Part shown: piece by piece, positions 9,694 through 61,275 of the stretch | How the letters are laid out: every line of letters begins with the position of its first letter | Numbering within the stretch: position 1 is the stretch's first letter | Origin: Auricularia sp. M13 | Lineage: Eukaryota > Basidiomycota > Agaricomycetes > Auriculariales > Auriculariaceae | Assembly (NCBI GenBank): GCA_037042915.1 | Contig: CM073195.1 | Coordinates: forward strand, 62,001-126,000 | DNA: 64,000 bases | Direction: 5' to 3' | The notes under the pieces: generated by a model | Databases searched by the model: none | The model's input: only the letters and a program-made list of their open reading frames with translations | What the model was told of the DNA's origin: nothing | Program-made: the position numbers and the translations under genes

Positions 9694-11092
9694 GGGCTAA
9701 AGTCGCGACTGCTGGGAGGTTCATGCATCGAGGCATCAGGAGTGCCGAGGCTGGCGCGCGAGTATCATGGGGTCGCGATCGGTGGTTGTCAGACCCCGGA
9801 ATTCGGGAGAACGAGATAGCCGCAGCTCGTTGCGTCGCAATGCGTGGTGGTGTTGGGAAATATCGCAAGCAGCGCCTAGGCGGCGGTACATACGAGTGAG
9901 AGCTCCGGGAAAGAACGGGAAGGCTGAGGGGTGGTGGTCAAAGAACCATATTTTCGATCGAGTTTATGGGCGCAGGAATCAGGTGTCGAGTTGTGGCTGG
10001 CCAAGAGGGGATGGCATTCGAGAATCGCGGCTTGTGGTGGTGGTAGCAAGACACTGGCAGTGCTTCGTGGGTATTCCCAGCCAAGTGCCAGACGGGTAAA
10101 CGTCTCGTGAATGAAAGCAGCATGCTGAGGGTGGACAGGCATTGCGGACACATGGTACTTGTCGCAGCACTATACAGGGACACCCTCGGACTTGAGGGCG
10201 CGCGCTGTGATGGTGCTCTGGCAATGCCGCAAGGACGGCTGCGCTGACGGCGGGCAGCTCTGGGTGCAGATAGCCGCGTGGACCACCGAGGCACGCAGAA
10301 CCCAGGCGGCTGTCACGGTGCGCACAAGAGAAGCAGCAGGAGCCAACACACGGTCGGCTGCGAGCGGCATTTCCATACCGGGACATCGCAACGTTTGCGA
10401 AAGCTCGCGGTTTCCCGATTAGGATCCCGTCATCGGCCCTGCACCGCCACTGCGACTCTTCCCTGGCGGTCACGGTTCCGGCTGGGATCACCACCACGAA
10501 TCGCAATGCAACGCCGCCACGGCGGCTCTCTCGCTCTCCCGTATCGCGCACCATGGATCGCGAGCTGAACAATCTGCGCTCTCTCACTCGCACCGCAATC
10601 TGACGCACTCGGGCTGCCTGACGTCTCGGCGCCGCTGAGATCTCGCCGCTGAGATCTCGCCGCACGATTCCTGAGCCCACATCCCAATCCTCCTCACTCG
10701 CTCAGATCGCTTTAGTTCTTTGGCAATCACCGATCGCAGATTCACCGTTACGGATCTCGCCCTCGTATGCACCACCGCCACGTCGCTGGACGGGATTGCG
10801 CCTCACCGATCCCCGCACCACCACGATTCTACGGATCGCAATCCAATATCCTACCGGTCTCCCATTGTACTCATGCTGGATCAGGAGACTCTGACAACCC
10901 CTTCCGGCCGTTTCTGCGCGTCCCCCTCGGTAACATGACGATACGCCGCCATTTTCTTGCCACCACCACGAATCTCGATTTGAAAACTCCCTGCCTCCTT
11001 TCCTCCCATTGGATCTTTCGTCTCACGTGCCGATTCATAGACAACCACGAATCGCATGCGAAGTGGCCACGGTTTTCCCGCTTCTCCCGGAT
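9694..11092. repeat. 1.4-kb dispersed repeat, copy 2
   Basis: Second copy of the unit at 5332-6728, direct orientation, about 99% identical by eye. Relative to copy 1 it seems to have lost about 20 bp between two GGATCGCG repeats at its right end. A diverged tandem continuation runs to about 11450, and a diverged inverted relative lies at about 33.0-34.0 kb. Confidence 0.8.
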
Positions 11093-32175: not shown

Positions 32176-32270
32176 GCGCGTAGGATGCGGCGGTCCGTCG
32201 GGATCCGCCGTGAAAATTTCCCTTGCAGGAAACGCGGAATTCACAGACTACTCCTCACAGTGTCCACCTC

Positions 32271-39497: not shown

Positions 39498-40335
39498 GAC
39501 AAAGGAATACGAGCTGAAATGAAAGTCACAGTGGGTGGAATGCTAGATGATGTAGACTCGCGCACGGCATTCCTGGGGCCCCAGTAATTCCTAGCTTTGA
39601 TGTATCCCAGGCATCGCGGTGGTCATGATGCCGTAATTGAAACTTAGTGTTTGCCACTTCATTCAATCCCGCCGTGCCGCCGATGGGAACGGTTAGAATC
39701 ATTCATCCGACATGGCACCCACATGGATGCCTATTCCCGTGTTCAGGATATAGACACACATGCGTCCAAGCTCGGAGATGAGGTCTTCTACCAGTTCGGC
39801 CTGTCGGGCAGAAACACTATGTGCCGCCTGGTTCATCCGTACAGTCGTATGCACCAAGTCGGCGTGATATAGGAGCATGGTCAGTGAGCGTGATTTTGAA
39901 GGCCAGGTGAGGCTAGGCGAACGATTTTATCGAATACCGCGACTGCAACCCGAGCCACAACGAACCTTGTTATATTGCCGGTCGCGCAGCGGGGAGTACC
40001 AAGCGGATAGGCCGCACCAGAGTCGAGGTAACACGTAATACCACCGGGGTATAAGTAGAACCGCCGGACCAACTTTGCAGTAAAATCGGCTGCCGCGGGG
40101 TATCGAGTAGACTGGGGGTCGCTGCGAGGCGAGCTGGACGGATGATGGCGGCGGTGCGCGTGGGGCGCTATTGAGAACGTCGGATGAAACTGCTATGCGG
40201 GGCAGCAGAAGATGTGTTCACTTTGAGACCATACTGTATTTCAGGTTTCGTCGCAATGATAGAGCGAAACGTAATGCAATTTCCGATGAACCGTAATGCA
40301 TCCCCGTTCAGATATGTTAGACACTTGTATTTTGG

Positions 40336-40505
40336 TTTGCTACTCCCAGCTCCCAGAACTCCCAGGTCCTGACTTTGACTGCTCCTGACTCCTGAACCCG
40401 AGACTTGTACTCCCAAAGTTAATGGTGAAATAAAACTTGTACTCCCAGAGAGCAACTTGTAAGGTGGAATAAAACACAAGTCACTCCTGACTCCCAAAAT
40501 GGTCA
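40336..40505. repeat. Degenerate CTCCCA/GGGAG repeat
   Basis: About ten imperfect copies of ACTCCCA/CTCCTGA words. The style matches the tail of the SINE-like insertion at 55188-55470. Confidence 0.55.
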
Positions 40506-40597
40506 AAGCAGAGCAGATGTATTGCGCGAGTTGTGTGCGAAAGATACAGTGTGTCGAGATGAGAAAAAAACGAGCTACGATACAGCTATAATACAAC

Positions 40598-43500
40598 TTA
40601 TGCTACAGCTACAGGCAATTCCGGACGAAGGTGAGGCACCGGCGGCAGTCTGTGACGATAGTCCATGAAGGACTGGGCGAAGCAATGCCAAACGCTGCTC
40701 TCCAGATTATAGAAGAGCTCGGACTCGCAGTTCACGGAGTGGATGTTGCCGCCGATGGCGACGAGCTCATCCCACGGTTTGAGGAACTGGTCAGCTCGAG
40801 GCCAAGGGCGCATGAACGTGTAGAAGTTCCACAGGCTCTCGAGGCGCTCGGTGCGATCGACGACGGTCAGCTTGTTGATCGCATTCCGGTCCGTGCCAGG
40901 GACAAAGTCGGAGCCACCCCAGCAACCGCGGCATTGTCTATATCGCTGCTTTGCGTCGAACTGGAGTGGCGCGTGGTCGGGGTGACTCTGCCGGATCGTG
41001 AGGTCGAGGTAGAAGAGCTCATAGCGGAACTCTAGCTCCGTCAGTTCCCACATGATGTACCTGCGCCAATCCAGCGACGGCCAGACAGCATCGTCGTCCT
41101 TGCCCGCCGTGAAGGGAGGAAGCTCGTAACCGTCAAAGGTCGGGTGGTTGATTCGGTCGATATATTGACCGATGCGCTTCAGCGGCTCGGCGGGCGGCAT
41201 CTCGACGGGCGGCTCAGCAGGCGGCTCGGGCGGTGTCTTGTTGGCGGGGGGCTCAGCAGGCGGCTCAGGCTGCGTCGTCAAAGGCTTTGGACCAGCAGTG
41301 GGAGGTGGTTCGAGTCGTGACGAGCTCGACGGCACCGCTGGCGGCTCGGGCCCGACAGACAACGGCGGCACAGACGGATCCTCGAAACGCGAACGGCGCC
41401 ACTCGACGATGGTGCCAAGGGGGCCCATAACCGCAACGGGACCCTGCTTGTTGGCCTTTGGTTGCGGTTTTTTGACACCCGCACGTTCCCAGCATCTACA
41501 ATTTCATGAGTGATTAATGACTGAGCACAACTGCGGACATACCCATCCCAATCTGCCCGCCAAATCCGTCGCGATCGAGGTGCCAGTCGCGGATGGTCAT
41601 CGTTTGTCCGCCACTCAATCGAGTTCTTGAGCAGCTGCTCGCCTTCGAGGTACTGCGTGGACAAGGGCAGATAGATGATGCGCTTCGCCTTGTAGTCCCA
41701 CCACTCCGTCATGCCGCGCTTGATGTTGTGGAAGTCGCGATGCTTGCGACTGATCAGCCAGAACGTTGGGGCGTCGTCGTTTGCCTCATCCACGCTGAAG
41801 TACCACACAGTGTAGTACGTCAGCGGGCGCGTCTTCTTGCTCTTGGGCTCTGAGATATACCAGGTCTTGGGTTCGACCTGGCGCCGCTCAGCCTCGCTCC
41901 GTCGAGCTACTTCGCCTTGTTCGGGTTCGTCGAAAAGGTCGCGAATGAGCGTGTCCTTGAGCTCAGAGACGGTCTTTGCCTGGACGGGGGGACTAGGCGG
42001 ACCGTACATTTCGTTCATTTCCTCCTCGCAAGAGTCAGAATCTTCGTCGATGTCGAAGACTCTCGCCGGCCGTGGACGGTTCAGACGGGGCGGAGGCGGC
42101 GGCGCAGGCTGGGGTGGAGGCGGCGGCGGATGCGGCGGCGCTGGCGCATGTACGGCTTGACCGGACTGTGCAGCAGACGGTTGGGATGCGGGCGGTAGCG
42201 GAGCAGGCTCGTCTTCGTCCTGCACACTATCATCCACAGGCTTGGGCAACGATGTGACCTTAGGTGCTGGTTGCGGCAGGCTCGCGTCCAGACCGAGCAA
42301 GTTGACCATGCGAGCGACATGCTGCTCCGGCACGACCAACTTCAACAAATTTCGCCAATGAGGCGCGGACATGCCTGGATTCTGACTGGCATCCGTCGTC
42401 GCCAGTCGCCGAAGAAAATAAGGACGGATCTTGAGCCAATGCAGCAAGGGTTTAGCGGTATTCAAGTTTCCGCTCTTGACTTCCTGGGGCCGCGTGGCAC
42501 TGGCGGGGTACACCGCCCTTGCCCTTGCGTAAGTTAAAGCCGGGCTCCTTTGCGGCCTTCCAGGCGTTGACGAAATACGATGCCAAGGGGACCTTGTGCA
42601 GCTGCAACTTGCCGATGTTCGGCGGCACAGGCAGCACGTCGGCGGTCATGAGGTCCAGCTGCCGCTCCCGCGATACATTCACGCGCCCGGAGACGTTATG
42701 AGCGGGCATGAATACCGTTGGGAACCAGTGCGGCCGCTCCGTGCTCTTGTAAGCCGAAATCCTGTCTGGCGCCACGAGCACAATGTTGTCCAGGCCAATT
42801 GTCGAGTTCTTCCCTTCGAGCAGCTTCGCAGTCGTTCGCGGTTGCGCTTCTTTGGCGGGGCATCCGCGCTGGAACCCGGGTCTTTGCAGTTCTGGTCAGT
42901 AACCTATCATGAGAAATAGCCAACAGATACATACCCTGTCTTTTGCGCTTGGACGACATGCCCGACCCTTTCGCGCCTGTCGATGGCCCGGCTGCTGACA
43001 GCTGCGGCGCTGGAGGCAGATGCCCTGCAAGATGCGCTGGCGCGGGAGGAAGATGCGCTGGCCGGGGAGGAAGATGCGCTGGCGGGGGAGGAAGATGCGC
43101 TGGCAGGGGAGGAAGATGCGCTGGCGGGGGAGGAAGTGGCGCTGGCAGTGGCGGCTTAGCCAGCCTCGGGTCATGGCTCGTCGAACTCGGACCTGCAACG
43201 CCGCTCGACGAGCTTGCGACGGGTACAGGCGCGTTGTCCTGGAAGCCGACGTCCTCGGTGCCGTTCCAGACGGACTCGGTGACGGCGACGTTTGATCCAG
43301 AGAAGGTCGTGATGTCGCTGACGGGCTGCGCCTCGACATAATGGTTGCGCTCGATGTCGTGTATATGAGCGCATTGCTGACTCCCGTACATCCTGTACAT
43401 GGCTCGTCGGATGACTCCCGCCTGCTGCTTCTCAAGGAGCTCGTTGAAGTGTGCTCGAGTGAAAGGCAGGAGCTGCCACACAGGAATGTCTCGCGATGCG

Positions 43501-44484
43501 TAGAACATGGCGAACTTGTCACTGGTGGTGAAGCAGCCCCGATAAGGCGCGACGTGCCGAGTAGCCTGATATATATGCGCCCGGCGAGCAACCTCGTATG
43601 ACGAGACGGTGGGAATGTATGCGTCCAATCCCGCCTCGAGGTCGCCCGTCTTCTTCTCCAACTCCATCCAGCCCCGTATCTCGTTCAGACAGCGCTGCCA
43701 CTCTGCGAAGTTGACGTGACAGTCCCACTTCTTTAACGACTGTCGTCTCAGGCTGCTTGTGAGCTCAACGAACTTGTCGTACCGCTCTGTTGGAATACGG
43801 GCCAACGCAGTCCTGCGGCCTGGCTTCTCCACGGCTGCCCGCCAAAGGGGTGTCGTCTCCAGCTCCGTCGTTTCGATACGATTTAGAAGCAGCGTGGGCA
43901 ACTTGAAGAGCTCGCTGCCCGCTGGTCGGAGGTGCTCGTCTTCGAGACGATACCAACCCAAGTCTCCGAGCATGTCGGTGTGCCGGAGATTCCACCAGGC
44001 GCGGCCAATCTGCAGCAGAACTTGTGAGCCCACTGGCTTGAGCAGCGGCACGAACGCCATGTGCAGGTTGTTCTCGTCGTGCATCTGCGGCAGTTGGCTT
44101 GCCTCGTAGAGACCGAAGCGACCGTCGACGCAGCGCGTTGGGTCGACGACGGGGTAGTCTGGTATCTCGGGCACAACGTCTCGATTCGTCCGCACGATGT
44201 ATCTGGCCTCCTGCAGGCTGGGCCAGGCGCAGAAATACGGCAGAGCGGTGAACGAGGGGTCCTCCCTGAACGAAGCCATCAGAGGCTCGTCTGCCAGTAG
44301 AAACATCTCGAGAACTCACGATTCATTCTCGTCGATGTCCATCTGGACGTCGACAGCCTGTGCCTGCGCGTTCGGATTCGACGCTGGCTGGCTGCGAGGT
44401 CGTCAGCATCAGATCGAGACGGCATACTCGAAAAACTCACGCATTGTCGACGTCCATGTCGACGTCTCGAGAGTCCACGTTCAT
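40598..44484 (-). CDS. Large lineage-specific gene with a one-base frame break
   Basis: Exons are 44484-44441, 44391-44320, 44265-42935, 42891-41543 and 41495-40598, with introns of 49, 54, 43 and 47 nt. Total exon length is 3,694 nt, one more than a multiple of three. The frame changes once near 42510, where dropping one G in GGGCGG would make the protein continuous at about 1,230 aa. The N-terminus is acidic, with several VD/MD pairs. Next come TRCVDGRFGLYEASQLP and a DIPVWQLL core, then a Pro-rich run with five PAHLPPx repeats, an NLS-like KRKR, another Pro-rich acidic linker, and a C-terminal domain (MWELTELEFRYELFYLD). From memory the modules resemble agaricomycete hypothetical proteins, and the N-terminal part resembles the extra ORF of the chromovirus. 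The function is unknown. It is either a recent pseudogene or an assembly indel. Confidence 0.7.
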
Positions 44485-44689
44485 TTTCGTTTGCCTGAGC
44501 GACTTGTAAATAAAAATTGACATGGTTTCGGTATAGATGGCTCACTGAAATACGAGTTCGAGAATATCTACTAGTGGATCTGTGGATGATTTCTATACTA
44601 CGTCTAATATACGACAGGCTGAATACTTGGGACGATTCTGAGTGGTGGGAGGGGGTGGAGAGAGACGGACGGTACAGGCGGTGACTGTG

Positions 44690-45084
44690 CGATGCACGAA
44701 CGAACGGGACGCTTGAGCGCTGATCGCGGCAAGCTCAACAGCCACGTTCACTGATGCGTGAGCGTGGCGCTGATTTATGTTCACTTGCGAGGGACAGACG
44801 GACTGGGGGTGCGCAGGCAGCGTGACTGTGTGATGCACGGACGAACTGGACGCTTGAGCGCTGATCGCGGCAAGCTCAACAGCCACGTTCACTGATGCGT
44901 GAGCATGGCGCTGATTTATGTGGAGGTTCGAGGGAGAGACGGAATGGGGGTGCGCAGGCTGCGCAGTACAGGCGGCGATTGTCTGACGCTCAAAGACGCT
45001 GGTGTCACTGATGCGTGAACCAGGTCGATGGTGCAGGAGCTCCCAGTAGCGCGTCCAGCTACACGTTCGCTGACGCGCGAACGG
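44690..45084. repeat. Hairpin array 1 with constant six-base loop
   Basis: Four hairpins have loops TGATGC or TGACGC on the plus strand: arms 44741-44751/44758-44768 (GCCACGTTCAC), 44882-44892/44899-44909, about 44999-45008/45015-45023, and 45064-45070/45077-45083 (CGTTCGC with GCGAACG, perfect). The first two lie in a 141-bp tandem duplication. The array is 0.2-0.6 kb upstream of the ATG of the large minus-strand gene, so on that gene's sense strand the loops read GCGTCA or GCATCA. Confidence 0.8.
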
Positions 45085-45239
45085 TCCACTGGCGCGATAC
45101 TCTGCGTCGACTGACTCGTCTACGCAGCGAAGGAGAGCTTGGAGAGCGCCCGGCGGCAGCCGGCGGCTGACTCGGGCACTTCGAACTCCGCTCAGCCAAA
45201 TCGGTCGTCTAAGTTGTCGAATGGCCTTTCCTCAACGCA

Positions 45240-45480
45240 GAGGCCGAGAATAAATTTACAAAATTTCGAAAAAAAATGATAAAACTACAACAAGTTTAAA
45301 TGAGCACACTGGAATAATATCTCATGAAATTTCCGCTGTGCCCTTCCTGTCTCACACTCCTGACTCAACCTCATGGCCTGAGATAGCATTATTTTAACTG
45401 AGAAACCCTCAATTTAACTCTCAAAGGGGTCTTGTAGATTAGTTAAGTCATCTTGAGCCCTGCATTGGCTGAGCTTTCAT
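45240..45480. other. AT-rich intergenic stretch
   Basis: Markedly richer in A and T than its surroundings, with A and T homopolymers near 45255-45280. No gene is seen. Confidence 0.5.
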
Positions 45481-45509
45481 TTCCAGAGTTCGCGTTCCCG
45501 AACGGGACA

Positions 45510-45521
45510 CGTCACGTGACG
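45510..45521. promoter_or_regulatory. Palindrome CGTCACGTGACG, possible upstream element
   Basis: A perfect 12-bp palindrome combining an E-box core (CACGTG) with TGACG half-sites, with two more TGACG words within 20 bp. It lies about 570 bp before the dioxygenase gene. Regulatory use is a guess. Confidence 0.3.
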
Positions 45522-46084
45522 CTGTTGACGGTGACGCAATGAGCAGTGAGACGCGACTGCGACCGCACGTTGAGGATCCTGGCCCGGATACTTGCCGCAA
45601 TATGTTCGGAATAATATCTTAAATACAATCCGTCGGTCGTGGGCGCGGGACGGACGCGTCGCGAGCGACGGACGCATCTCGCACCGACGACGACGAAAAG
45701 GGTATTCAACCGCTGCTCTGGCTGCCGTTTGCGACCACCCTGAGCTGCCGCAACGGCGTCACTGGCTTATGCTAGGACCCTAGAGCTCCCTCAAGCCGCA
45801 GCGGCGAAGGTTGCTCCGGGGTATGCGGCCAGAGCAGAAGTTGAACACGCGGTTTAAAGTCCGCGCGTTCGCGGCTTCTGCGCGCCGGGTTGCACGCACC
45901 ACGTGACCTGCATTCCCGATATGGCAACGATTCCGTGCCTGCACCGGTCCGCAAAACACGCGCCGCACATGATGTGCTGGCGTTGCTCTTATCGATCCTC
46001 GATCTCTCCCTAATAACCCACGTCGCAGCGAGCACATAAGCCGTGCTTTTTCCGCAGCCGATCTCGCGCACATCCGTCCTGCCC

Positions 46085-47664
46085 ATGGCCGACACTCCAG
46101 GTGCGCAATTCATCGTTCTGGCCATTGCGACTCATCAACTCGTCGGTAGGACCATATCCCGAGAATGAGAGTATCCCGGTGGACTTCGCCGAGTTATTCC
46201 AGAGAATCGTGCAGCAGGCACAGCTCAGCGGTGGGGAAAAACTGCGAGATCTCTTTGGCATTCAACGCAACGGTACGGAGGAAGCTCTATCGGACGACGA
46301 TGCTGGACAGGTCACTGAGCAACCTGTGACTCCGGTACAAGCTGCTGGGACTCTCGCGGCTGGCGAATCAGCTGCTGAGCCGCTCGCGGAAACTGGGACA
46401 AAAGCTAAAGGCCGCAAGCATAAGTCAGCATCGCCTGAACACTCACGCACTTGCTCTGACTTGCCACGAAGGAAATCCAGAGCACTAAATCCCGAGAAAC
46501 TCGAGGCGAAGATGCTTACAAGCTGGCATCGTCTCAATAAGAAGATGCTAGAGACTGCGCTGAAGCCCGGGAATATACGTACGTACTGTTGAGAATACAT
46601 GCCCTCACCAACTCCTCCGTACAGACCGCGTTCCCGAGCTCGACCTCGCCGCGCTCGTCGACAGGAATCAAGAGCGCAACAGCAAGCCTTACCCCGCCTT
46701 CGAATCTGTGACGGCCAGGGTCAGCGATGAGCCTTTTGTCCTCGTGGACAAGAAAGACGTACCTGCTGTCATCGTTTTCCCGAACTGGTTATCCAAAGCT
46801 AGTCATGTGCGTCCGCGCTGCTGCGGAAACTCCTACTCACGTGCGGAATAAACTCAGGACATCCTATTCAAGAGTCTCATGGACTTCGGGCGCAGTGTCG
46901 GTGTGAAAATTCGCGCTGGCGCAGATCAGAATGCGAGAGACGCGGAAGAATGCTATACTCGGCAGGAGCATCAAGACGAACTGCACGGCGTATTCCAGTT
47001 GGTATCCATCTGGAGGGCCCTCGGTCGATCGGTGAGCTCAGATGATCAGCCTAGAGTGTGTGTGCTCACCGGGTGAAGGCGAACAATGGCCCTGCGGGGC
47101 CCGCTCGCGATCTCTTCAAGAAAACAGACAACCTCAACACGGGGCTCGCGTTGCTTCGAGAGCTGCGGCTCGTGACCATGCGACTCATGGACATGTTCCA
47201 GCTCATCGACCCCGAGCAGTACAACCTCTTCAACGATGCCTCGGAGAAGTTGAAAGCCATGTACCCCGCATATGCCGCGCTGGCCGCTGCCGACCCCCTC
47301 CTTCCTCCACGGGAGAAGTCTCATCTACAATCGAGAGACCGGCGAACACACTGACCGCCGCGATATGAAGCTCGCATGGACGCCGATTCTCACAGTGGGT
47401 AAATACCGCGAAGGCACGCTTCGTGTCGCGGGTTCGGACATTAACTATCTCCCCGGAACACTTGCGTTCATTAGAGGGGGCATCTTGAAGCACTCTGTTC
47501 AATTCGCAGGCGGTCAGCGCATCGCGATTGCGCACTTCATGCACAAGAATGTCCTTGCGGAGGTCGGTGCAACGAAGGTCAAGCTTTTCACATACAAAGA
47601 AATGGCGGGCTATAAGCCGCCTTTCGACGAAGGCAACGGTGACTGCGATGAACCGATGAATTAG
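46085..47664 (+). CDS. TET/JBP-like 2OG-Fe(II) dioxygenase with a one-base frame break
   Basis: Exons are 46085-46100, 46150-46578, 46625-46806, 46858-47001 and 47055-47664, with introns of 46-53 nt. All joins keep phase, and the total of 1,381 nt is one more than a multiple of three. The single frame change lies at 47290-47312, in a C5 run followed by CTCC repeats, with no room for an intron. Removing one C gives 459 aa. The C-terminal domain has HTD (about residues 355-357) as the HxD metal ligand, a YLPGTLAFIRGG strand, distal His in ILKHS (about 403) and the 2OG-binding Arg in GGQRI (about 412). This layout fits the oxygenase domain of fungal TET/JBP proteins, some of which oxidise 5-methylcytosine; activity on DNA is inferred only. 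The middle contains a Lys/Arg-rich linker and helical segments. It may be a pseudogene. Confidence 0.65.
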
Positions 47665-47848
47665 TTTCTGAAGAGCGCATGTATTCAACTCACCCTGGCA
47701 AGCATATATGCACTCATATCTCACCTTACTAATTTTCGGGCACTCATTCATCATGAACAAATGAAAGCATTAAGATTGGCGGTTAAGAGGGTCAAGGACA
47801 GGCTCATCGAGATTACAAAGTGATTAAAATAAATTAAGGGAAGGGTAT

Positions 47849-48934
47849 TCAAGCCGAACGAGACTTCTTCGTCACCGGCTGGAGTTCCTGCTGCTCATCG
47901 ACCTCGCCCTGCATGTCTCTCTTGCGCTTGTCCCTGCTCGACGGTGCCGCGGGTGCCTGCCTGGCACTGGCGACGTTGCGGCTCTTCGACGGGCTGGGAA
48001 CGGGCACCGGGGTGGCGAACGGGTTAGGTTTGGGGCGGCCATTGCGGCTGGCCGAACCAGCCATTGGCCGCTGCATGATTGCCGTCCCGCTGGCGGCGCC
48101 ACCGCGGAGGCCAGCGTTGGCGAGGGGAGTGGCAGCGGTGGCGGCGGCGGCGGCGGCAGCGGTGCTTCGCGGCACGGTGGCGGGGGCAACGGCGCGTTTG
48201 GTGCGTGGAGGGGGAGCGGTGGTGGTGGGCACGTGAGCGGGAGCGCCGGTGGCAGCGGGGTTGGTTCGTGGAGCGGCAGCGGCAGCGGTGCGGGCGGGAG
48301 CGGCAGCGGCGGCGGGGTTGGTTCGTGGAGCGGCAGCGGCAGCGGTGCGGGCGGGAGCGGCAGCGGCGGCGGGGTTGGTTCGTGGAGCGGCAGCGGCAGC
48401 GGTGCGGGCGGGAGCGGCAGCGGCGGCGGGGTTGGTTCGTGGAGCGGCAGCGGCGGCGGCGGTGTCGCCAGGTAGTATCTCCGGGATTCGGGTTCTCGGT
48501 TGGAGGATAGGATCTGGCAGCTCGGATCCGCTGTACGGCCTGCGCACAAGCCGGAGCTGTACGACGATGGACATGCCGTCACAGTCATGGCCATCCCGGC
48601 CCATGTCCATATCGTCGCCTTCCTTCAGGTGCGCATAGCGAGGAATATCCTCACCGTAACTTGGGTGCACCTGCAACACCTCGACGAACAAGTTTTTCTC
48701 CCAGTCGTTCAGGAGAGAGAGCACGGTGGGCGGCAGCTCGTCGTAGCTCAACCACCGGTTGAAGCGCGGCGTGTTCACGATGATCGTCTCGCCAGTCTGA
48801 TTGACTTTAGTCTCGCGCAACATAAGAAAAGCGCGGCGGATAATACGCACCACCATCTGACAATAAAACTGCCACTCGCCGTTGGGGCGGGTCGGTTTGT
48901 CCGGTAGAGAGTAGAGCGGAAGCTTGGGGGGCAT
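47849..48934 (-). CDS. Ala/Pro-rich basic protein with 19-aa repeats
   Basis: An intact 361-aa frame with an ATG at 48934. The N-terminal 130 residues look folded (GEWQFYCQMVVRIIRRAFLML, NRWLSYDELPPTVLSLLNDW). Residues about 155-235 are four near-identical 19-aa units (TAAAAAPRTNPAAAAAPAR), encoded by a 57-bp minisatellite at about 48246-48460. The tail is Arg/Lys-rich with NLS-like patches (RDKRKRD, TKKSRS). No enzymatic motif is present. It is transcribed away from 49192-50849 across a 257-bp gap. The function is unknown; nuclear location is likely. Confidence 0.7.
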   Translation of the reverse strand: MPPKLPLYSLPDKPTRPNGEWQFYCQMVVRIIRRAFLMLRETKVNQTGETIIVNTPRFNRWLSYDELPPTVLSLLNDWEKNLFVEVLQVHPSYGEDIPRYAHLKEGDDMDMGRDGHDCDGMSIVVQLRLVRRPYSGSELPDPILQPRTRIPEILPGDTAAAAAAPRTNPAAAAAPARTAAAAAPRTNPAAAAAPARTAAAAAPRTNPAAAAAPARTAAAAAPRTNPAATGAPAHVPTTTAPPPRTKRAVAPATVPRSTAAAAAAATAATPLANAGLRGGAASGTAIMQRPMAGSASRNGRPKPNPFATPVPVPSPSKSRNVASARQAPAAPSSRDKRKRDMQGEVDEQQELQPVTKKSRSA

Positions 48935-49191
48935 GGAAAGAGGATTAAAGAGCGGGGTAATGTCAAGTCTGTAACTGCGAGACCCAGACGCTTAAGTACG
49001 TCGCTGCGCGGTCCCACGATCTGGACCCAAGAATATTCCGATTGGATAGAGGACTTGAAACGTGAAAGAGCTTCCCTCGCGTGGATCGCAGGCCATCACC
49101 GCATGACCTTCACCTTTTACTCATTTCTTTGAGGACGCGCCACCCAATTTTATCCCTTGCTGCGCGAACGCGACGACGGCCAGCAAATCCC
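48935..49191. promoter_or_regulatory. Shared divergent promoter region
   Basis: Only 257 bp separate the ATGs of the minus-strand gene (48934) and the plus-strand gene (49192). No clear TATA box was picked out. Confidence 0.45.
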
Positions 49192-50849
49192 ATGTCACCC
49201 CGGACTACTCGCAGCGGCCGGAGCGCGATCGTTCAGCAAGCTCCAGCGCAGGAGACGATCAAGAGGGCCTGCAAGCGTTGCTCTGCCGCACAAGGCACGA
49301 AGGTCAGAGCCCATGGAAGAGCCCGTTGCCCGGTACGACGCTCGCGGTACGCGCTGCCCACAAATGCTGAGCAATTTCTTAGCTCGCGGCCGATGAAGCC
49401 GCGAACCATCTCGAGCGGAAGCAGGAGTACATGGAGGCTACGCGTGCTCAAAGAGACAAGCTCGTTGCCAGCCGTCGCACGAAGGTCGACGAGCAGGCTT
49501 CGGATTCTGACGCCGAGCACGAGGGCGACACAACGCTCGACGAGAGCGAGAACGATGGCGATGTGACCCGAAGCACCGCCGCTACCTCCCTCATGGACGA
49601 CGAGCAAGAGCAAGACGTTGCTCCTGCCTACGACGACAACGAGCACGAGCAAGAGCAAGACGTCGCGGACGAGCAAGAGCAAGATGTCGCTCGCGCCTAC
49701 GACGACGACGAGCACGAGCAAGAGCAAGATGTCGAGGACGAGCAAGAGCAAGACGTCGCGGACGAGCAAGAGCAAGATGTCGCTCGCGCCTACGACGACG
49801 AGGGCTTGCAGGACGACGGCGCAAGCGTCAGCTACGCCGGCAGGAGGCTCGACGACAACAACTTCTTCAATAGCGAGGATGGGCTGTATGCCGCGCCGCT
49901 GATGCATGAGCCGCAGAACTTCGACAACGCCGATGCCGTTGCCTCTCAAATCGACGAGTTCACCGAGCAGGCCACGCACGAGTCTCAAATCGAGGACGCG
50001 GAGAACCAGGGCGACGACAATCAGACCTCTGATGAGGACGAGGACGACAACCCGTACACCGAAGCCAAAATCAAGAAGATGGCTATTCACGAGCTCGGGT
50101 CGGCGCTCGCGTACATCTGGAACTCCAGCAAGGACCGCAAGTCCAAGATGAACGAGGCCGTGCAGCATATTGTACAGGTGCGGGAGGACGTCGACACGAG
50201 CTCGTGCACGATACCAAACCTGTGGAAAGGCACGAGTACCGCGGGGGACTTCATTACAAGTAAAGTCCTTGCGCATATACCGTGCTTCATTAACGTGCCG
50301 CTCGCAGGTATAAGTCACGCCTCGGACGCCACTCGCCAGAGTCGGGTCCTCACACAGTGGTCGAAGAACGCCACGAGCACCAACAGGTGGCACGACACCC
50401 TCCCCAACTTCGGCAGTGTTTGCCTGAAGGTGAGCCCTGTCCGCGCCGATGTGCTGTCCACTGCTGACGCGCGCACCTCGCAGATGGAGAAGCTTGCCGA
50501 CTGGTGCCCGTCGTGGGCGTTCATCGCCTTCCTGCCCAAGGACGGCAGCGGGCAAATGTACACTTGGGTCTCTGAGTCGATCGCGGACGAGAAACCCGAG
50601 CTGGCGGAGGCCATGCGCAGCACGATGTTCGAGCAGCTGTACAACCTCCGCAAGCAGCGGGCTGCTGAGGACATGAAAGCCCGCGCCGATCTGACGGCGA
50701 GGGCTGAGGCCGCCGAGGCATGGATGATGGAACAGCAAGCAAAGTTCGACGCGATGGAGGAGCGGCTGGAGCAGGCAGAGCAGGCTCGCAAGGAGCTCGA
50801 GGAGGCCGCGCAGTACTGGCGGGAGAAGGCGCAGAAGCGTTCGAAGTAG
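49192..50849 (+). CDS. Acidic repeat and coiled-coil protein
   Basis: Exon 1 is 49192-49302, the intron is 49303-49382 (80 nt, GTCAGA..TTAG) and exon 2 is 49383-50849. The join keeps frame and yields 525 aa. The first 40 residues are basic (RTTRSGRS, KRACKRC). Residues about 105-180 are repeats of DEQEQDVA and ARAYDDDEHEQEQDV, encoded by a minisatellite at about 49600-49800. A folded middle follows (SALAYIWNSSKDRKSKMNEA, DWCPSWAFIAFLPKDGSGQM), then a C-terminal coiled coil (about 440-525, MEERLEQAEQARKELEEAA). No known domain is seen. It pairs divergently with the basic-tailed protein; the opposite charges may hint at interaction, but that is speculation. Confidence 0.7.
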
Positions 50850-51239
50850 CAGTATCGCAGTACAGATACCTCGATACCCCCACATTCCTTTCTTTTTCCT
50901 GGTCTCCTCGTCACACATCCGTCCGTCCGATTAATATCAGTCACTCGTTATCGCACTCGCCCACCGCTCCAGGAAATGCAAACAACAAATCATTTCATTG
51001 CACCACATAACAGGAAAAGTAGATCAGAGAGCCTGCTCCGCCGTGTCCCAGTGCTGCATATATGCATGTATGCTGATAAGCGAGCATATAGCGTGCGGTG
51101 GTACTTCGTCAACGCCGTTCCGTTCCTGGACGTCTGAACAACACAGAACATAAGAAAATAGCACCTGATGCTCTTCAGGGAAGGGATCTTCCAATGCTCG
51201 AGCATATCTTCTGACTGTGGGCGCAACACTGATTTCGTC

Positions 51240-52372
51240 GGGGGAATGGATGCGAGGAACGGGAATGAGATGTCCAGGGACGCCAAGGAGGGTATATTGA
51301 CGCATATACCCTCCTTTGACCGCCCACGCTCACTGATGCGTGAGCGTGTATGCGGGTGGCGTCCTTGTGCGAGCCGGCGATAGCGTCGGGGGGAATGCAT
51401 GCGAGAAACGGGAAGAAGATATCCAGGGACACCAAGGAGGGTATATTGACGCATATACCCTCCTCTGATCGCCCACGCTCACTGACGCGTGAGCGTGTAT
51501 GCGGGTGGCGTCCTTGGGCGAGCAGGCGACTGCGTCTGGGGGTCTTGGGGGAATGGCTGCGAGGAACGACAAGAAAATGTACAGGAGCACTCTGAGGGAC
51601 GCCAAGGAGGATACATTGACGCATGTACCCTCCTCTGACCGCCCACGCTCACTGGCGCGTGAGCGTGTATGCGGGTGGCCGTGCAGGTACGCCTAAGCGA
51701 AGAACCTGTCCCCATCATCTCGCCTATGAGGAGAACGCCGAGAAGCCGCTCACTGACGCGTGAGCGGCCTCGTCACAGGCCCGCAGTTAAGCGGGCCTGG
51801 CCGTGCTGTCGGACGGACACTGACCCGTGGCGTCGACAGCAGCGGGCGGGCGGTGAGTCTGGGTCGGAGTTCGAACGGACTTTGGTCTTTCATCCGCCCT
51901 CCCCTCCTCCGCACACCCCCATCCCCGTCACCCACCCGCCTTCCCCCTTCCCTCCTCCCTCCCTCCGCTCCGCCGGTGGCAACGCGTCAGTTGCCATCCA
52001 GAGCTCAGGTCGTTGGTGAGCGTGGACACGCGTCAGTGTCTGCGCTCTCTTCGGCCGTCCCTCCTGCCCCACTGAATACATCGTATAACCCCCTAGTGCC
52101 AGGCATAAATTTTCTTTATACTCTACCTTTGCCCATTCCCCTCCGTGGTAGTCAACGCGTCAGTTGTCTGCCCGGAGAATCGTCGAGCACGCGTCAGTGT
52201 CCGTACGCCCCACCATCCTCAAATTAAATAATAAAACCTTGCCCATTGCTCTCCATAGCAGCCATAATCTCTGATTAATAATTTCTCTGTGTCCATTCCC
52301 CTCAGTGGCAGTCAACGTGTCAGTTGTCTGCCCGGAGAATCGTCGAGCACGCGTCAGTGTCCGTACGTCCCA
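51240..52372. repeat. Hairpin array 2 with constant six-base loop
   Basis: At least twelve hairpins. Loops TGACGC, TGATGC or TGGCGC on the plus strand sit at 51298-51303, 51334-51339, 51447-51452, 51483-51488, 51617-51622, 51653-51658 and 51754-51759. From 51984 the loops read GCGTCA (51984-51989, 52030-52035, 52157-52162, about 52191-52196, about 52317-52322 as GTGTCA, and about 52351-52356). Stems are 7-13 bp and differ in sequence. The first six lie in three tandem units 149-170 bp apart; the last four in a duplication offset by 160 bp. One further perfect 9-bp hairpin (51776-51799) has a different loop, AGTTAA. A Pro/Ser-type pyrimidine-rich stretch lies at 51890-51970. The array ends at the KDZ gene start. 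Confidence 0.85.
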
Positions 52373-52385
52373 AATCCAGATCCTC

Positions 52386-55160
52386 ATGGCACGCGATATC
52401 TTCGTCGAGCCCACCTATGTGCGGCGGCGAGGAAAGAATAAGACCTCGCAGCCCACGAGCTCGTCAAGCGCTGCTCGCAAACGCAATTCCACGAAGGCGA
52501 CAGCGGCGGGCAAGCGGGCAGCACCTGCTCTCGACGTCGACCGTCCCGTGAAGCGGCGCAGGATCTTGGCGTCCCAGCACGCTCCAGAGAGCGTTTATGA
52601 AGCCTACCGGGAAGCGGTCGATTCGCGTCGACTCGCCTTCTTCCACATCGATACCTCAACCTGGGTCGCCGAGATATGCGACCTCGACACGTTGGCTGCG
52701 CAAGGCAGTTGCGTCAACGGCTGGGCTGTCCTGCGCAGCGAAGTCGACGAAGCAGAAGCCGTGTCGTATAACTGCACCTGCCCCGACTACCTTCGCAACT
52801 CGGACGTCGACCAACGATACTGTCTTCACACTATGCTGCTTTCGTCGGACCATCGGCCGCCGTTCAAGTTGTTCACCGAGAAAGGTACGTTGACTATCTG
52901 TAGTGTCGTCGAGCCTCGCACTGACTGCTGTAGACAATCCCTCCTCCGTCTTGTTCGAACATATTCCAGCTACACCCCAAGCACCCGCCCTTTCGTTCTT
53001 CGTCTCCTTCGTCCCAGGGCACAGCAGACAAATCGTCCAACATTGCGGGCGATCCTCGAACCAGGGTCACTGGACTTGCGGCAAGCATCGCGACAACAAC
53101 TGCGTGCACATCAAAGCCGCTCGTGCCCGCGACGCGTTGAAGTTACTGCTCGAGGAGGCGGAAGTCGATGAACACGAGGGTGACGATCTAGCTGAGAGAG
53201 CGCGACTACGAGGTGAGCTCGCGTGTTCGATGCTTGGCCGGCCGAATGCTAATGGCCCTGCAGCCGAAGCCAAGAGTCTGAGGGATTACGATGATGAGCG
53301 GAGCGTATCCCGCCTCAACGTCGGCCCACCGGCGTGGGCGCGCATTGCCTCAGATTCTGACGAGGATGCACCCACGTTCGCTCTCGTTGATCCTATCCCG
53401 GACTACTTCTGCCTTGGCAAAGATCCTCGTTGCCGCTGTGGGAGTGGTCCGAAGGAATCGGCGCCGGTCAAGGTCATCGACTGCATCGTATTCGGACTCT
53501 CGTCCGCGTGCGCTGCCCAAATCGAAGTCCAAGTCTGCAGCACCTGCGAGCCCCAAAGCCATCAGAATGCCGGGCCAGACCTGCGCGAGTTCGGTATCTT
53601 CAACTTCAATAATTCCCGCCTGTACACGCACGAGCTTCTCGACAAGTACACTAGCCTCATGACGCTCGCCGAGGTTCCCTTCCACGCGTTCCATATATCC
53701 GTTTGTCGAGATTATACCAAGTCGTCAATTCCCTTCGTCTGCGAGCGGACGTTCCGAACAGCATATTTTTCGTTCTCCAGACTCCAGAAGCTGGACGTTA
53801 GCTTCGTCTGCGACATCTGCGGTGAAGAACCCGAGGTCGTCGTGTGTGATGGCGTGACTGCTGGCTTCAGAGCCGACTTGGTGACGGAGTCTCTGCGACC
53901 TCCTACGACCATCGATGCGCACGCGTCATCGATACTCAGCGTGAAACCGATGCCGGGGAGACGTCGTTGGTGAACGGCGATGTCAGAAAGCGCGCCCAAC
54001 AGGCAGTTCGATGGCGCCTGAAGTTGCGGCAGGGAAAGACGCCTCTCGCTCCGGGCGACGATTCGGAGGAGTCCCTTGACGAAGATGTCGATGCTGAGGG
54101 AGCGGAGCGCGTGGCGAATAAACGACGCAACAAGAGAGATGCGGAAGATAAGGCCATGAGAAAGAAGTTGCCTGGGATTGTGGACGAACTCGCGAAGCAG
54201 AGCCGTGAATTAGCACAGATGTTCGGCATATATGTAGCGACCGATTTGAAGAGCCTCGACAGCACTGTCTTAAAGAATTACTTGCATCTATTGGAGCAGG
54301 TGGGTTCGTTTCCTTTCCAGGGTAATGTTGTCTCTAACGTCGTATTTAGCTGCTGGCATATGAGTCGGTGCTACAGTTCGCAAACAAATCGGCGTGGCCC
54401 TTTCTTGACATGCTCAAGGACGGCGACGCGGAGGGCATCCTGCCGCTACTCTCACTCGTTCCCGCCCTCGCCGTCGTCGCTCGGTATGAAGTGAAGACGA
54501 CGAAACAAATCAGCTCTACACTTCAAAGCGTCGCGGGATTTGTTCTTGACCGTTCGCAAACGGTCTTCGCGTCGCTTTCGCACCACCACCCGGATGAACA
54601 CCTGATCGAAGAGCATGAGGATTGGCGCGAGGTTCGTTTTTATAATGATCCCGGACAGTGACAAAGTTAACACGCATTTCAGACTGGCACCTTCTACGGA
54701 CGGCCCCGCATTCGAAACAGATCGGTGTACCCCAACATTCCCGGAGACGGCGCAACCGATCGCGCGACGGTCACGGCGTCGGGCGGGAAGATGGCGTGCT
54801 CCAAGTTTTATCAGACCTATGGCAAGAAAGGCTTAACGGGCGGCTTAATGGCCATCTGGTGCCCGCACAGTGTCTGCTACGGGTTTCACTGCATCCCGAA
54901 AGGCGAGGGGCGGAACGACGTCTTTTCCGCGCTGTACACTCACTGGGTCCGGCCACCCAAAGTCGTCGTGTACGACTTCGCCTGCGCGCTGTCCCCATAC
55001 TGCATGATTCGGGAACCCATCTACTTCGGCGACACCCTTTTCGTCATCGATGGCTTCCATGAGCACGACCACTCCCGCTGCTCGCCGGCCTGTTTCCTCA
55101 GCGCGTATCTGGAATGGTCTGAAAAGTATCGGAACATCAACTCGAGCGCCGGCCACATAT
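52386..55160 (+). pseudogene. KDZ-type transposase, truncated at the 3' end
   Basis: Exons are 52386-52884, 52934 to about 53970, on to 54299, 54350-54631 and 54683-55160, with introns of 49-51 nt. Modules in order: a basic N-terminus (KRRR); a SWIM-like CxC..CxH zinc site (CTCPDYLRNSDVDQRYCLH); a second Cys/His cluster; further cysteine clusters (CRCG, CSTC, CDICGEEP) of the CxC type that accompany KDZ transposases; then the transposase core with CPHSVCYGFHCIPKGEGRND, VVVYDFACALSPYC (first catalytic Asp), LFVIDGFH (second Asp) and NINSSAG. The frame changes once between about 53880 and 53970: either a 59-nt intron (53881-53939) or one lost base near 53965. A donor GTAAGC at 55161 is followed by repeat sequence. 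The exon expected to hold the catalytic Glu and the RIRK-type tail is absent, so this copy should be inactive. Confidence 0.85.
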
Positions 55161-58575: not shown

Positions 58576-61275
58576 TTGTCGCAGGCCGCATCAACATCTA
58601 ACGAAGGAGCGTCAACCTCTGCGGCCGTTCCAGCGTCAGCCCCAAAGCCACCGTCGTCGCGAGCGCTTCCGTTTCGGCACGCGCCAACTCCAACCGAGCG
58701 CGCGCTTGCGAAACGTCGCGCAACCGTCTCACAGCCTCCCTCCCCGCGAGTCGCGCCTTCTGTACCACGTCCACGCTCCCGCTCGTCTTCTGAAGGATCT
58801 CAGCATCCAGCGCCAAACTCGCGCTCGCGTTCGCCGACACCTACCTGGAATTCGATCCGGAACCCCTCGCCGTCTCGTTCGCGCCGATCTAGTGGCCCAT
58901 CCGCGCCAGCTGACGCCGAACAACTTCCCGAGCAACCAATCGAGCCTTTAGCGCGACCTCTGCAAGCAGAACGAGCCCACTCACCGGTTCGGTCTATAGC
59001 GGACATCCTCGCTGCCGCTGCTGCCCGCCTCAGAAGAACCTCGCCTCCGTCGAGTCCTCCGTCGCCTCCGCCTCCATCTCAACCACCGCCTCAAGCGCCA
59101 CCTCAACCACAACCCAGAATGGCCGATCCAATCCCAATGCCAACGCCCGCGGAGCGCCGCGCCCCGAAGTTCGAGGGCGACGGTCGCACCCTCATCCAAT
59201 TCCTGCGCGATTACAAGCGCTGCGCCGACGCGGCCAAGTTAACCGATCAAGAAGCAATAGAACAGGTCGTGACTTACGTTTCGAAGGCAGTACGCGCGGA
59301 CATCGAGCAGTTTGACGAGTACGAAGATGCTGCGAAGACGACATGGGACAACTTCAAGAAGCGTTTGCTGAAAGACTATCCCAATGCCGTCGCGCCAAAA
59401 GAGTACACGAAAGATGAGTATGCGAAATTTGTCGAGGGATGCGCGACACGCACCGTCACAACCGAGGATCAGCTCGCCGAATTCACGCGCGAGTTTCGCC
59501 GCCACAGCAGCAAGCTCGTCAAGAATGGTCGCATTACGGCCGAGGACAGCCAGCGCGATTACTATCTCGTCCTGTCGCGCAATCTCGGACAGCGGCTCGA
59601 GTTGAAGCTGATGATGAAGGACAAAGACAAACGCACCGATCAGTTCACAATTGACGAGATCTTCGGCGAGTCGCAGACGATTATCAAGAACAATCGTCTG
59701 GACAAGGCGTCCATTGCGACGTCGCCTGCAACGCAGGCACAAGAGTCATCAGTCAAGAAAGAAGACGCAATGCTCGTGCTACTCACCCAAATCAAAGACG
59801 AGCTCGCCCGCCGCCAAGCTCCTCCCGTGCAGCAGAATCGATCTGGTGCGCAGGGTCAGTCCACTGGGGGTGCTGCGAATCCGGCGGCGACATACTCGAT
59901 GGAGGGCTGCTACTATGATGCTGGCGCGCATCCTATGCGCGACTGCCCCGCGCTGAAGGCAGACCTCGAGTCTGGGCGCTGCGTTCGGAATGACCGGGGC
60001 AAGATCGTCTACCCGAATGGGGAGATGATCAGAGGCGGCCCGGGAGTCAAGCTGAAGGATCGTATCGACGAGTTCCACAAGCAAAATCCCGACTTCTTGA
60101 AGAAAGCTGCGAAACCAGCTGCATCGGCGATGCTGGTTGAGATCGACGAGTCTTACTTCGACAAGGCGACTGTAAACGTGCCGCAATTTGAGACTGAGGA
60201 CGCCGAGAACGCATGGTATGCGGTCATGAGCCAGACGCTGACGGCGATCGATCAGCGCCGCGCCGGCCTTGACGGGGATGCGTACTCAGTTGTACAGGGC
60301 GAACGCAGGCAATACGGCCTCCGTAGCAAAGGTCCAGTACCTGGGAACCTAGGAAAAGTGAATCCAACCGCTAAAGATCAACCACCGCACCTCGAGAAGG
60401 GGATTGTCGACAAGATGCCACCGCGGGCAGCGACTCCGGCACCAGCACCGGCCGCAAAACCAGCCACTCGCCCGTCAGCCACTATCGAGGAAGTCCAAGA
60501 CCAGGACGCACCTGCTGCTGCGCCGATTCCGCGAGTTCCACTCCCGCATGTGCCTGCTGTTGCGACGCGCCCGCAGTTCAGACTGCAGTCCCAACTCGAA
60601 AATGACGGACTCACCAAAATCATCCACGACCGAATCCTTGAGTCCAAGGTTGTGATGACCGTCGAAGAGCTCCTTGCAATTAGCCCCAGCCTGCGCAAAT
60701 ACTGGAAGGAGCAGTCCGCAACAAAGCGGGTGACGGTGGGATTTACAGGCACCGGAGCGGAGATTGATCCGGCATCCGGTGCGGAGATTTTCCAGTACCG
60801 CGCCACTGGCAGTCTCTCTCCTTCGCGGGATCTAATCGCGGCCGAGCACGCGCTGCCACTGCGCTACTTGGACTGCGACATCGCGCAATACACGGTCGAG
60901 GGCGTCGTCGATAGCGGTGCCATGCTCGTCATTATCAGCCGCCAGCTCTGGGAAGATTTGGGCAAGCCGATTGACGTCTCGCGCCGTATGTCTCTGGAAG
61001 CCGCGAATAACACGACCGCGCGCACGCTTGGTCTCTGCGCAAATCTCGAGGTCAAGGTCGCCGGCCTGACCTTCTACCTGCAGGCGCACGTCGTCGAAGA
61101 CGCGCCGTTCTCGCTGCTACTCGGTCGGCCGTTCCTTTCGCTCGCACAGGCCTGTGAGGAGCATCGTGACGATGGCATGTCCATTATCACGCTCCATGAC
61201 CCCAACTCGAACCGCGCCGCTCGCATCCCAACTAAAACACGCTCGCGTCGCGCTGAGCAAGCCCAGGATTTTTGA
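58576..61275 (+). CDS. Gag and protease polyprotein of the second gypsy element
   Basis: An open frame of 899 codons ending TGA at 61273-61275. It has no ATG until 59119 (about codon 182), so the start is unresolved. The first 180 residues are rich in S, P and R with SRSRS-type runs. The gag core follows (about 190-390, RRAPKFEGDGRTLIQFLRDY). A knuckle-like site near 445 (CYYDAGAHPMRDC) lacks the second Cys of CX2CX4HX4C. An aspartic protease motif VDSGAM is near 777 and LLLGRPFL near 860. Gag assembles particles and the protease cleaves the polyprotein. The missing Cys could mean impaired RNA binding or a lineage variant. Confidence 0.8.
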   Translation: MSQAASTSNEGASTSAAVPASAPKPPSSRALPFRHAPTPTERALAKRRATVSQPPSPRVAPSVPRPRSRSSSEGSQHPAPNSRSRSPTPTWNSIRNPSPSRSRRSSGPSAPADAEQLPEQPIEPLARPLQAERAHSPVRSIADILAAAAARLRRTSPPSSPPSPPPPSQPPPQAPPQPQPRMADPIPMPTPAERRAPKFEGDGRTLIQFLRDYKRCADAAKLTDQEAIEQVVTYVSKAVRADIEQFDEYEDAAKTTWDNFKKRLLKDYPNAVAPKEYTKDEYAKFVEGCATRTVTTEDQLAEFTREFRRHSSKLVKNGRITAEDSQRDYYLVLSRNLGQRLELKLMMKDKDKRTDQFTIDEIFGESQTIIKNNRLDKASIATSPATQAQESSVKKEDAMLVLLTQIKDELARRQAPPVQQNRSGAQGQSTGGAANPAATYSMEGCYYDAGAHPMRDCPALKADLESGRCVRNDRGKIVYPNGEMIRGGPGVKLKDRIDEFHKQNPDFLKKAAKPAASAMLVEIDESYFDKATVNVPQFETEDAENAWYAVMSQTLTAIDQRRAGLDGDAYSVVQGERRQYGLRSKGPVPGNLGKVNPTAKDQPPHLEKGIVDKMPPRAATPAPAPAAKPATRPSATIEEVQDQDAPAAAPIPRVPLPHVPAVATRPQFRLQSQLENDGLTKIIHDRILESKVVMTVEELLAISPSLRKYWKEQSATKRVTVGFTGTGAEIDPASGAEIFQYRATGSLSPSRDLIAAEHALPLRYLDCDIAQYTVEGVVDSGAMLVIISRQLWEDLGKPIDVSRRMSLEAANNTTARTLGLCANLEVKVAGLTFYLQAHVVEDAPFSLLLGRPFLSLAQACEEHRDDGMSIITLHDPNSNRAARIPTKTRSRRAEQAQDF

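Follow-up and report, generated by a model that had tools for sequence, protein, structure and literature searches.

Why should a short stretch of a fungal genome hold many hairpins that share a loop and differ in their stems? The question is posed by positions 51240-52372 of a 64,000-nucleotide stretch of DNA from Auricularia sp. M13 (hereafter the window; contig CM073195.1, positions 62,001-126,000), where a sequence-only reading had noted at least twelve inverted repeats around the loop TGACGC, with unrelated stems and a closing pair that was nearly always C-G. It had suggested a recognition site for a transposase or other DNA-binding protein, or a structured RNA leader.

Hairpins with a TGACGC loop exceed random expectation

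The pattern of TGACGC-loop hairpins in 51240-52372 is real and well supported. Nine of the ten six-base-loop hairpins in this interval with a net stem of at least 7 have TGACGC (with at most one mismatch) as their loop, while 1000 dinucleotide shuffles of the same region gave a mean of 0.001 such hairpins (maximum 1) and, at the same stem threshold, a mean of 0.112 six-base-loop hairpins with any loop sequence (maximum 2). Across the whole window 12 of 19 six-base-loop hairpins (net stem at least 7) are of the TGACGC type, compared to means of 0.03 and 7.4, respectively, in 60 shuffles. When all loop sizes are pooled, the window is not unusually rich in perfect hairpins (51, compared to 26-47 in ten first-order shuffles); it is the six-base loops that are in excess (11 vs. 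3.2 in shuffles).

To tell pairing apart from mere repetition of the core, a stricter test was used in which the loop and the two innermost pairs were held and the outer flanks shuffled 300 times, each arm separately. Sites matching TGACGC with at most one mismatch number 49 in 44660-45140 and 51240-52372 together, and 30 of the 49 have a closing pair. Sixteen of these 30 fall in the best 1% of the 300 shuffles: 12 in 51240-52372 and four in 44741-45127. The other 14 are mostly off-register or chance matches and include weak-stem copies of the motif at 45112, 52191 and 52351 (the last two within 51240-52372). The count of at least twelve hairpins is therefore borne out, the stems that had been listed are correct, and the comparison with shuffled sequence that had been called for places the hairpins far above both dinucleotide and flank shuffles. 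Loops of the twelve read TGACGC in eight cases and TGATGC, TGGCGC, TGACAC and TGACCC in one case each. Their closing pair is C-G in nine and T-A in three.

Organization of the hairpin clusters

The array is the middle one of three hairpin clusters in a DNA transposon of about 18-19 kb. Two copies of the element (c5a and c9) show hairpins at 4.4-4.8 kb, 10.9-12.8 kb and 15.5-17 kb along its length, and the clusters are situated between or beyond gene candidates. Mechanically called ORFs overlap all three clusters (120-190 aa in clusters 1 and 2, and long frames over the GC-rich repeats in cluster 3); we judge these to be chance or repeat frames, and the arrays to be noncoding.

Cluster 1 (44741-45127, plus strand) contains five hairpins with the stems gccacgttcac (twice), tggt(g)tcac, cgttcgc and ctgcgtcgac and the loops TGATGC, TGACGC and TGACTC, and lies partly within a 141-bp tandem repeat. 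Four of the five are in the best 1% of flank shuffles; the hairpin at 45112 ranks 25 of 300.

Cluster 2 consists of two halves between which the direction of the loop flips once, from the plus strand left of ~51.84 kb to the minus strand right of ~51.98 kb. The left half (51285-51841, eight hairpins with the TGACGC-type loop on the plus strand) comprises three related units of two hairpins each, followed by a GCCGCTCAC stem and an interrupted GCTGTCG..CGACAGC stem. The right half (51977-52370, TGACGC-type loop on the minus strand) repeats a 160-bp unit that holds two motifs; the window copy has four strong and two weak hairpins here. Near the flip, a palindrome scan identified a perfect 9-bp palindrome with a different six-base loop (CAGGCCCGC-AGTTAA-GCGGGCCTG, 51776-51799), which all 11 aligned copies of the element keep, with one base changed in copy c7. 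Because part of the cluster is tandem repeats (149-bp and 160-bp units), its twelve hairpins are not twelve independent events. By eye the stems fall into five to six unrelated families: AAGGAGGGTATAT; CACGCTCAC with GCCGCTCAC and CCACGTTCAC; TGGCAAC and GGCAGACAAC; GAGCGCAGACAC; CTGCGTCGAC; and, in other copies of the element, CGTCCGCCTTGCGC. Exact TGACGC is dense along the element: the 18.9 kb of copy c5a hold 45 such sequences, 18 of which have a net stem of at least 4. Some TGACGC sequences in cluster 3 have no stem.

The motif itself resembles sites of host regulators, RCTGACGCGY containing an ACGCGT (MCB) or a TGACG (CRE-like) core. If the arrays were sites for a host cell-cycle or bZIP factor, then the stems would be incidental. 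Many motifs do read ACTGACGCGT, but ACGCGT is not constant (the sequence is ATTGACGCAT in the 12-13-bp family and GCTGACGCGC in cluster 3), and the outer stems are left unexplained: we consider a host factor highly improbable.

Fourteen bases separate the end of cluster 2 from the first ATG in the transposase frame. The cluster could be transcribed, in the leader of the transposase or as a noncoding RNA, and act as RNA structure. The left loops would then read UGACGC and the right loops the complementary GCGUCA, so that kissing contacts between them, or reading by an RNA-binding protein, would be possible. Folding of the plus strand is significant (z -7.85 for the left half, -5.70 for the right half), and the first unit of the 149-bp type (51272-51372) is predicted to form a T-shaped structure of ~100 nt (-62.3 kcal/mol as RNA) in which an outer stem, AGGGACGCCA/TGGCGTCCTT, encloses both hairpins; this outer stem closes in the first two units. 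Both stem flaws of the hairpin at 52018 are G.U on the plus strand. However, folding of the DNA strand reaches similar significance (z -8.35 for the left half), wobbles are without clear strand bias (8 on the plus vs. 5 on the minus strand, with 9 other mismatches, in 36 distinct hairpins), and clusters 1 and 3 are away from the transposase leader. A role at the RNA level appears unlikely.

A KDZ-type transposon with a CxC4 domain carries the array

The host element is a large, recently mobile fungal DNA transposon. Alignment with other copies and searches for its ends place the window copy, a KDZ/CxC4 element, at 40309-55153 on the plus strand, where it is interrupted; its right end lies outside the window, at C3:133392. 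The element begins with CAGATATGTTAG and ends with GGCCATAACCC. End searches returned 13 left-end matches (two being pieces of one interrupted copy) and 12 right-end matches. Full-length sequences were read for c9 (18.0 kb) and c5a (18.9 kb), and both ends for 11 copies. A perfect 8-bp duplication of the target flanks seven of these 11 and is missing from the window copy and from c12, c3a and c10. The element is hence a mobile unit with defined ends and a target duplication, as is characteristic of the KDZ superfamily.

The transposase gene starts at 52386 (the first ATG of the open frame, a candidate start) and is cut off at 55153 (plus strand). It carries the cysteine cluster of the CxC type (CxC4, PF18717, 128.3 bits; cut-off 26.9), after which a match to the KDZ domain (PF18758) is placed that scores 18.8 bits in the window exon and 24.1 bits in the exon of copy c11 (C11:3050433), both below the cut-off of 26.6. 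The break at 55153 is inside the gene, at a point where other copies continue; to its right is an ORF (58576-61275) with an aspartyl protease domain.

The element also contains a gene for a TET/JBP-like dioxygenase, as expected of a TET/JBP-carrying transposon. In the window its exon (47055-47661, plus strand) scores 25.8 bits against a cut-off of 34.9, and the frame is broken. In copy c9 (L017:3478-4083) the exon is open and scores 29.2 bits, also below the cut-off, with this being the sole family found there; an HTD triplet is present in the frame. Of 19 Tet_JBP matches in the genome, nine are within element copies (nine of 12 copies), and all nine are below 34.9 bits. Two further candidates for accessory genes have no family match: 49431-50849 (plus strand), with a product that appears by eye to be acidic and coiled-coil-like, and 42696-44306 (minus strand), upstream of which cluster 1 is located. 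Searches for relatives of both proteins found none at E <= 0.001, and family and relative searches gave no DNA-binding domain in either. The structure predicted for one of them has a mean pLDDT of 34.7, too low to be usable. A search with PF20515 gave 0 matches, as did its control.

At the termini a different array is found. Coordinates carried over from c5a put a subterminal ACTCCC array at approximately 40342-40490 (plus strand) in the window copy; c5a itself has five ACTCCC in its first 200 bp and 11 GGGAGT (the mirrored form) in its last 400 bp. Comparison by eye of 200 bp from each end of c5a shows a short subterminal stretch around TGGTTTGCTRCTCCCAG that is shared in inverse orientation; within those 200 bp no long terminal inverted repeats, of the kind that characterize Zisupton and KDZ1, were seen.

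Elsewhere in the window, a long open frame at 23788-32244 encodes reverse transcriptase, RNase H, integrase and a chromodomain, and corresponds to a Ty3/gypsy-type retrotransposon. Two minus-strand ORFs of 233 aa (5617-6318 and 9979-10680), each with the same 14-bp tandem repeat, are 4.36 kb apart and are possibly a direct repeat.

The hairpins appear specific to one element family

Searches of the genome with CACTGACGCGTG gave 98 matches vs. 11 for the reversed control, and by our own count 70 of the 98 are in arrays of this element family; GCGCTGACGCGCGC gave 48 matches (39 in the family) vs. five for its control. Solo CACTGACGCGTG sites at L006-L008 have no TGACGC-type hairpin with a net stem above 4, and a scan of IMG/VR for an 18-base hairpin returned 0 matches. 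Six CACTGACGCGTG sites lie ~9.5 kb apart at G000:C1:7802229-7849764; this spacing, the sole basis, would fit one site for each repeat of an extended tandem array, ribosomal DNA for instance.

Because the array moves with the element, a free-standing feature or a host-gene promoter was rejected as an explanation. The suspected association with KDZ and TET/JBP genes holds inside this element, for the KDZ-type transposon to which the hairpins belong has a TET/JBP-like gene as well. As a general feature of KDZ elements it is unsupported, for no TGACGC-type hairpin with a net stem of at least 5 was found in the 7-10 kb (stretches short of whole relatives) around four of the 27 CxC4 places outside the family (L032, L046, L047 and L048; CxC4 exons 36-51% identical). 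At a looser threshold L032 shows four TGACGC-like loops with net stems of 3-4. L032 also has some ACTCCC/GGGAGT motifs, and L046 only four GGGAGT.

These data bear on the proposal that the hairpins are recognition sites for a transposase. If they served excision and insertion, then opposite loop directions would be expected towards the two ends, and the left and right parts do differ in this way; it also fits that the array adjoins the transposase gene and that cluster 3 is within about 2-3 kb of the right end. However, the flip and both halves of cluster 2 are located mid-element (in c5a the distances to the left and right ends are ~11 kb and ~6 kb), and the stretches read around relatives that have this kind of transposase are free of the hairpins. 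Since the termini carry their own, different motif in inverted ACTCCC/GGGAGT arrays, recognition of the ends by the transposase is the less likely use of the hairpins, and we now regard the proposal as weakened and improbable.

Pairing and variation among copies

In an alignment of 20 chosen hairpins, 90% of pair cells are standard pairs vs. 57% in shuffles, and changes on both sides affect 57 cells vs. 17 in shuffles. Two-sided change is evident at all nine pairs, which 13 of 500 shuffles equal. All 20 had been chosen among sites resembling hairpins, and units related to one another are not independent. That loop and pairing are kept while stems differ, as had been claimed, is therefore supported by the proportion of paired cells and tempered by the choice of rows, by the relatedness of units and by the persistence of mismatched ones.

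Cluster 3 illustrates both sides. Its stem cgccTtgcgc/gcgcaAggcg shows a T-A to C-G exchange, but over 31 sites (the five commonest forms) the variable pair is T-A in 14, C-G in six, T.G in four, G.A in four and C.A in three, i.e., 11 mixed pairs. Because broken pairs stand beside compensated ones in this cluster, selection for pairing would be loose at best.

The array is present in all 11 element copies read (interrupted or shortened in two of them). Unit number varies: by our own count the right half of cluster 2 has 3 to 8 CACGCGTCAGTG matches per copy in 11 copies. Ten hairpins followed through the alignment of 11 copies are kept in most of them: copy c12 is without four hairpins owing to a deletion, and c3a, c9, c11, c7 and c1 have one altered pair each. 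As to compensation between element copies in cluster 2, these copies are too alike for the ten hairpins to tell, and in a diverged copy (C1:2346904, 92% protein identity) only the gene part was found. The loop variants TGATGC, TGACAC and TGACGT each differ from TGACGC by one C-to-T type change at a CpG, which is compatible with decay through methylation; the arrays show no depletion of CpG (observed/expected 0.98-1.59).

Could the pairing be without function? The arrays may be a mutational palindromic minisatellite, in which a stall or nick at TGACGC leads to a template switch that copies one flank into the other, so that palindromes arise and are spread by tandem duplication. Palindromes of other families, variable in their centres, occur in the 3' region – for example cgacgtcgagcccgTTGCcgggctcgacgtcg and acgggcagcgcg..cgcgctgcccgt, with arms of 10-14 bp – so the element appears to make palindromes in general. 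The coexistence of broken and compensated stems and the absence of the array from the relatives looked at agree with this explanation as well. It accounts less readily for the constancy of the loop, which remains close to TGACGC in all three clusters and in five to six families of stems: this needs a focal trigger at TGACGC, and thus still a recognizer. Also against it is that the ten aligned hairpins are kept in most of the 11 copies, though the copies are too similar to prove constraint. On balance we think a purely mutational origin somewhat unlikely, albeit the strongest of the competing explanations.

These other palindrome families, seen in the 3' regions of copies c5a (L026) and c9 (L018), differ in their loops and occur in many repeats close to the right end, with constant arms of 10-14 bp; one of them shows a G-C to A-T exchange adjoining the loop.

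Discussion

A fixed TGACGC loop on differing stems suggests a shared recognition tag. The reading that we favour, and hold tentatively, takes the hairpins for a binding array that is specific to the family and spread between the genes of a large, TET-carrying KDZ-type element, probably with a regulatory or anti-silencing role. It draws support from a loop that changes little between the five to six stem families and from the presence of a stem around most motifs. A protein encoded by the element – the TET/JBP-like protein with a partner, an accessory protein, or a transposase that regulates itself – would read TGACGC. The self-complementary flanks would allow the site to extrude as a hairpin or cruciform, either displaying the loop or keeping nucleosomes away. 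Where motifs are dense, ahead of the transposase gene and upstream of the gene on the left, they may recruit this factor, which could in turn keep promoters active or unmethylated, as VANC proteins do on the motif arrays of VANDAL elements. A TET/JBP-like gene in the same element makes an anti-silencing role attractive.

A regulatory array is favoured over recognition of the ends because the hairpins are so far family-specific, evolve as tandem repeats, and lie between genes and apart from the terminal motifs. Relatives without the array are as expected of a fast-changing address, unlike core sites of transposition. The combination of conserved loop and free stems implies either that the loop is read in a paired frame, or that something acting at TGACGC gives rise to palindromes again and again. 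Against a binding array, a protein that binds duplex DNA would not need the outer stems; three weak-stem copies of the motif in the window, stemless TGACGC sequences and mismatched pairs in cluster 3, accessory proteins in which no DNA-binding domain was found, CpG that is not depleted, and a flip in direction that VANC arrays lack also count against it.

A stronger form of the binding hypothesis is that the address is coded by structure, the tag being loop sequence plus pairing with the sequence of the stem free. An element factor, perhaps together with the element's own TET/JBP enzyme, would then read the CpG-containing TGACGC only on an extruded hairpin or cruciform; some units would be T-shaped double hairpins, and the transposon would tag its own promoters for anti-silencing. 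This we judge quite unlikely.

Sites with conserved loops and variable stems are familiar from rolling-circle origins, REP/IS200 hairpins and integron attC sites, where the reader is an HUH nuclease or a tyrosine recombinase. The present hairpins share with them a structure that is kept, a stem whose sequence is free, and key bases in the loop; Pfam scans of the ORFs given found neither an HUH nuclease nor a tyrosine recombinase.

With KDZ transposons the element shares a CxC-type cysteine cluster, a TET/JBP-like gene and large size, and its transposase has a match to the KDZ domain that is below cut-off. According to PMC12730594, TET/JBP-carrying KDZ elements occur in many mushroom-forming fungi, and the Kyakuja families of Laccaria have 7-bp target duplications and CA..TG ends. 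Here the duplications are 8 bp, as in KDZ1 and Zisupton, and the ends are CAGATATG..CATAACCC, so that the element does not have the Kyakuja features. Nor were long terminal inverted repeats seen in the 200 bp read by eye from each end of c5a, whereas those of Cryptococcus KDZ1 measure 241 bp (PMC12810828). The word "hairpin" is absent from the main texts of both papers.

The nearest functional parallel is the VANC target array of VANDAL transposons. According to PMC5735166 and PMC10398659, VANC proteins act on motif arrays in Arabidopsis VANDAL21 and VANDAL6. The likeness is in a short, dense, noncoding motif (noncoding status being a judgement here) that is specific to one large transposon family, sits in tandem repeats that grow and shrink, and is absent or different in sister families. 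Three differences are apparent: VANC motifs are in one orientation (PMC5735166 and PMC10398659), while here direction flips once at ~51.84-51.98 kb; VANDAL elements are a different transposon class from the KDZ-type element; and neither "hairpin" nor "palindrom" occurs in the main texts of these two papers.

No eukaryotic structure-coded array of this kind was found in the literature, with open-licence papers searched. As far as that search reached, the fixed-loop arrays are so far an undescribed variant within a TET-carrying element of the KDZ group. An array with a fixed loop and free stems offers a concrete candidate for the target sequence through which the TET/JBP enzymes of KDZ elements may find their own element. 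Were the pairing without function, the arrays would be a natural record of palindromes arising repeatedly around one short sequence; if it is functional, they would represent an uncommon case of eukaryotic DNA that is read by loop sequence and structure together.
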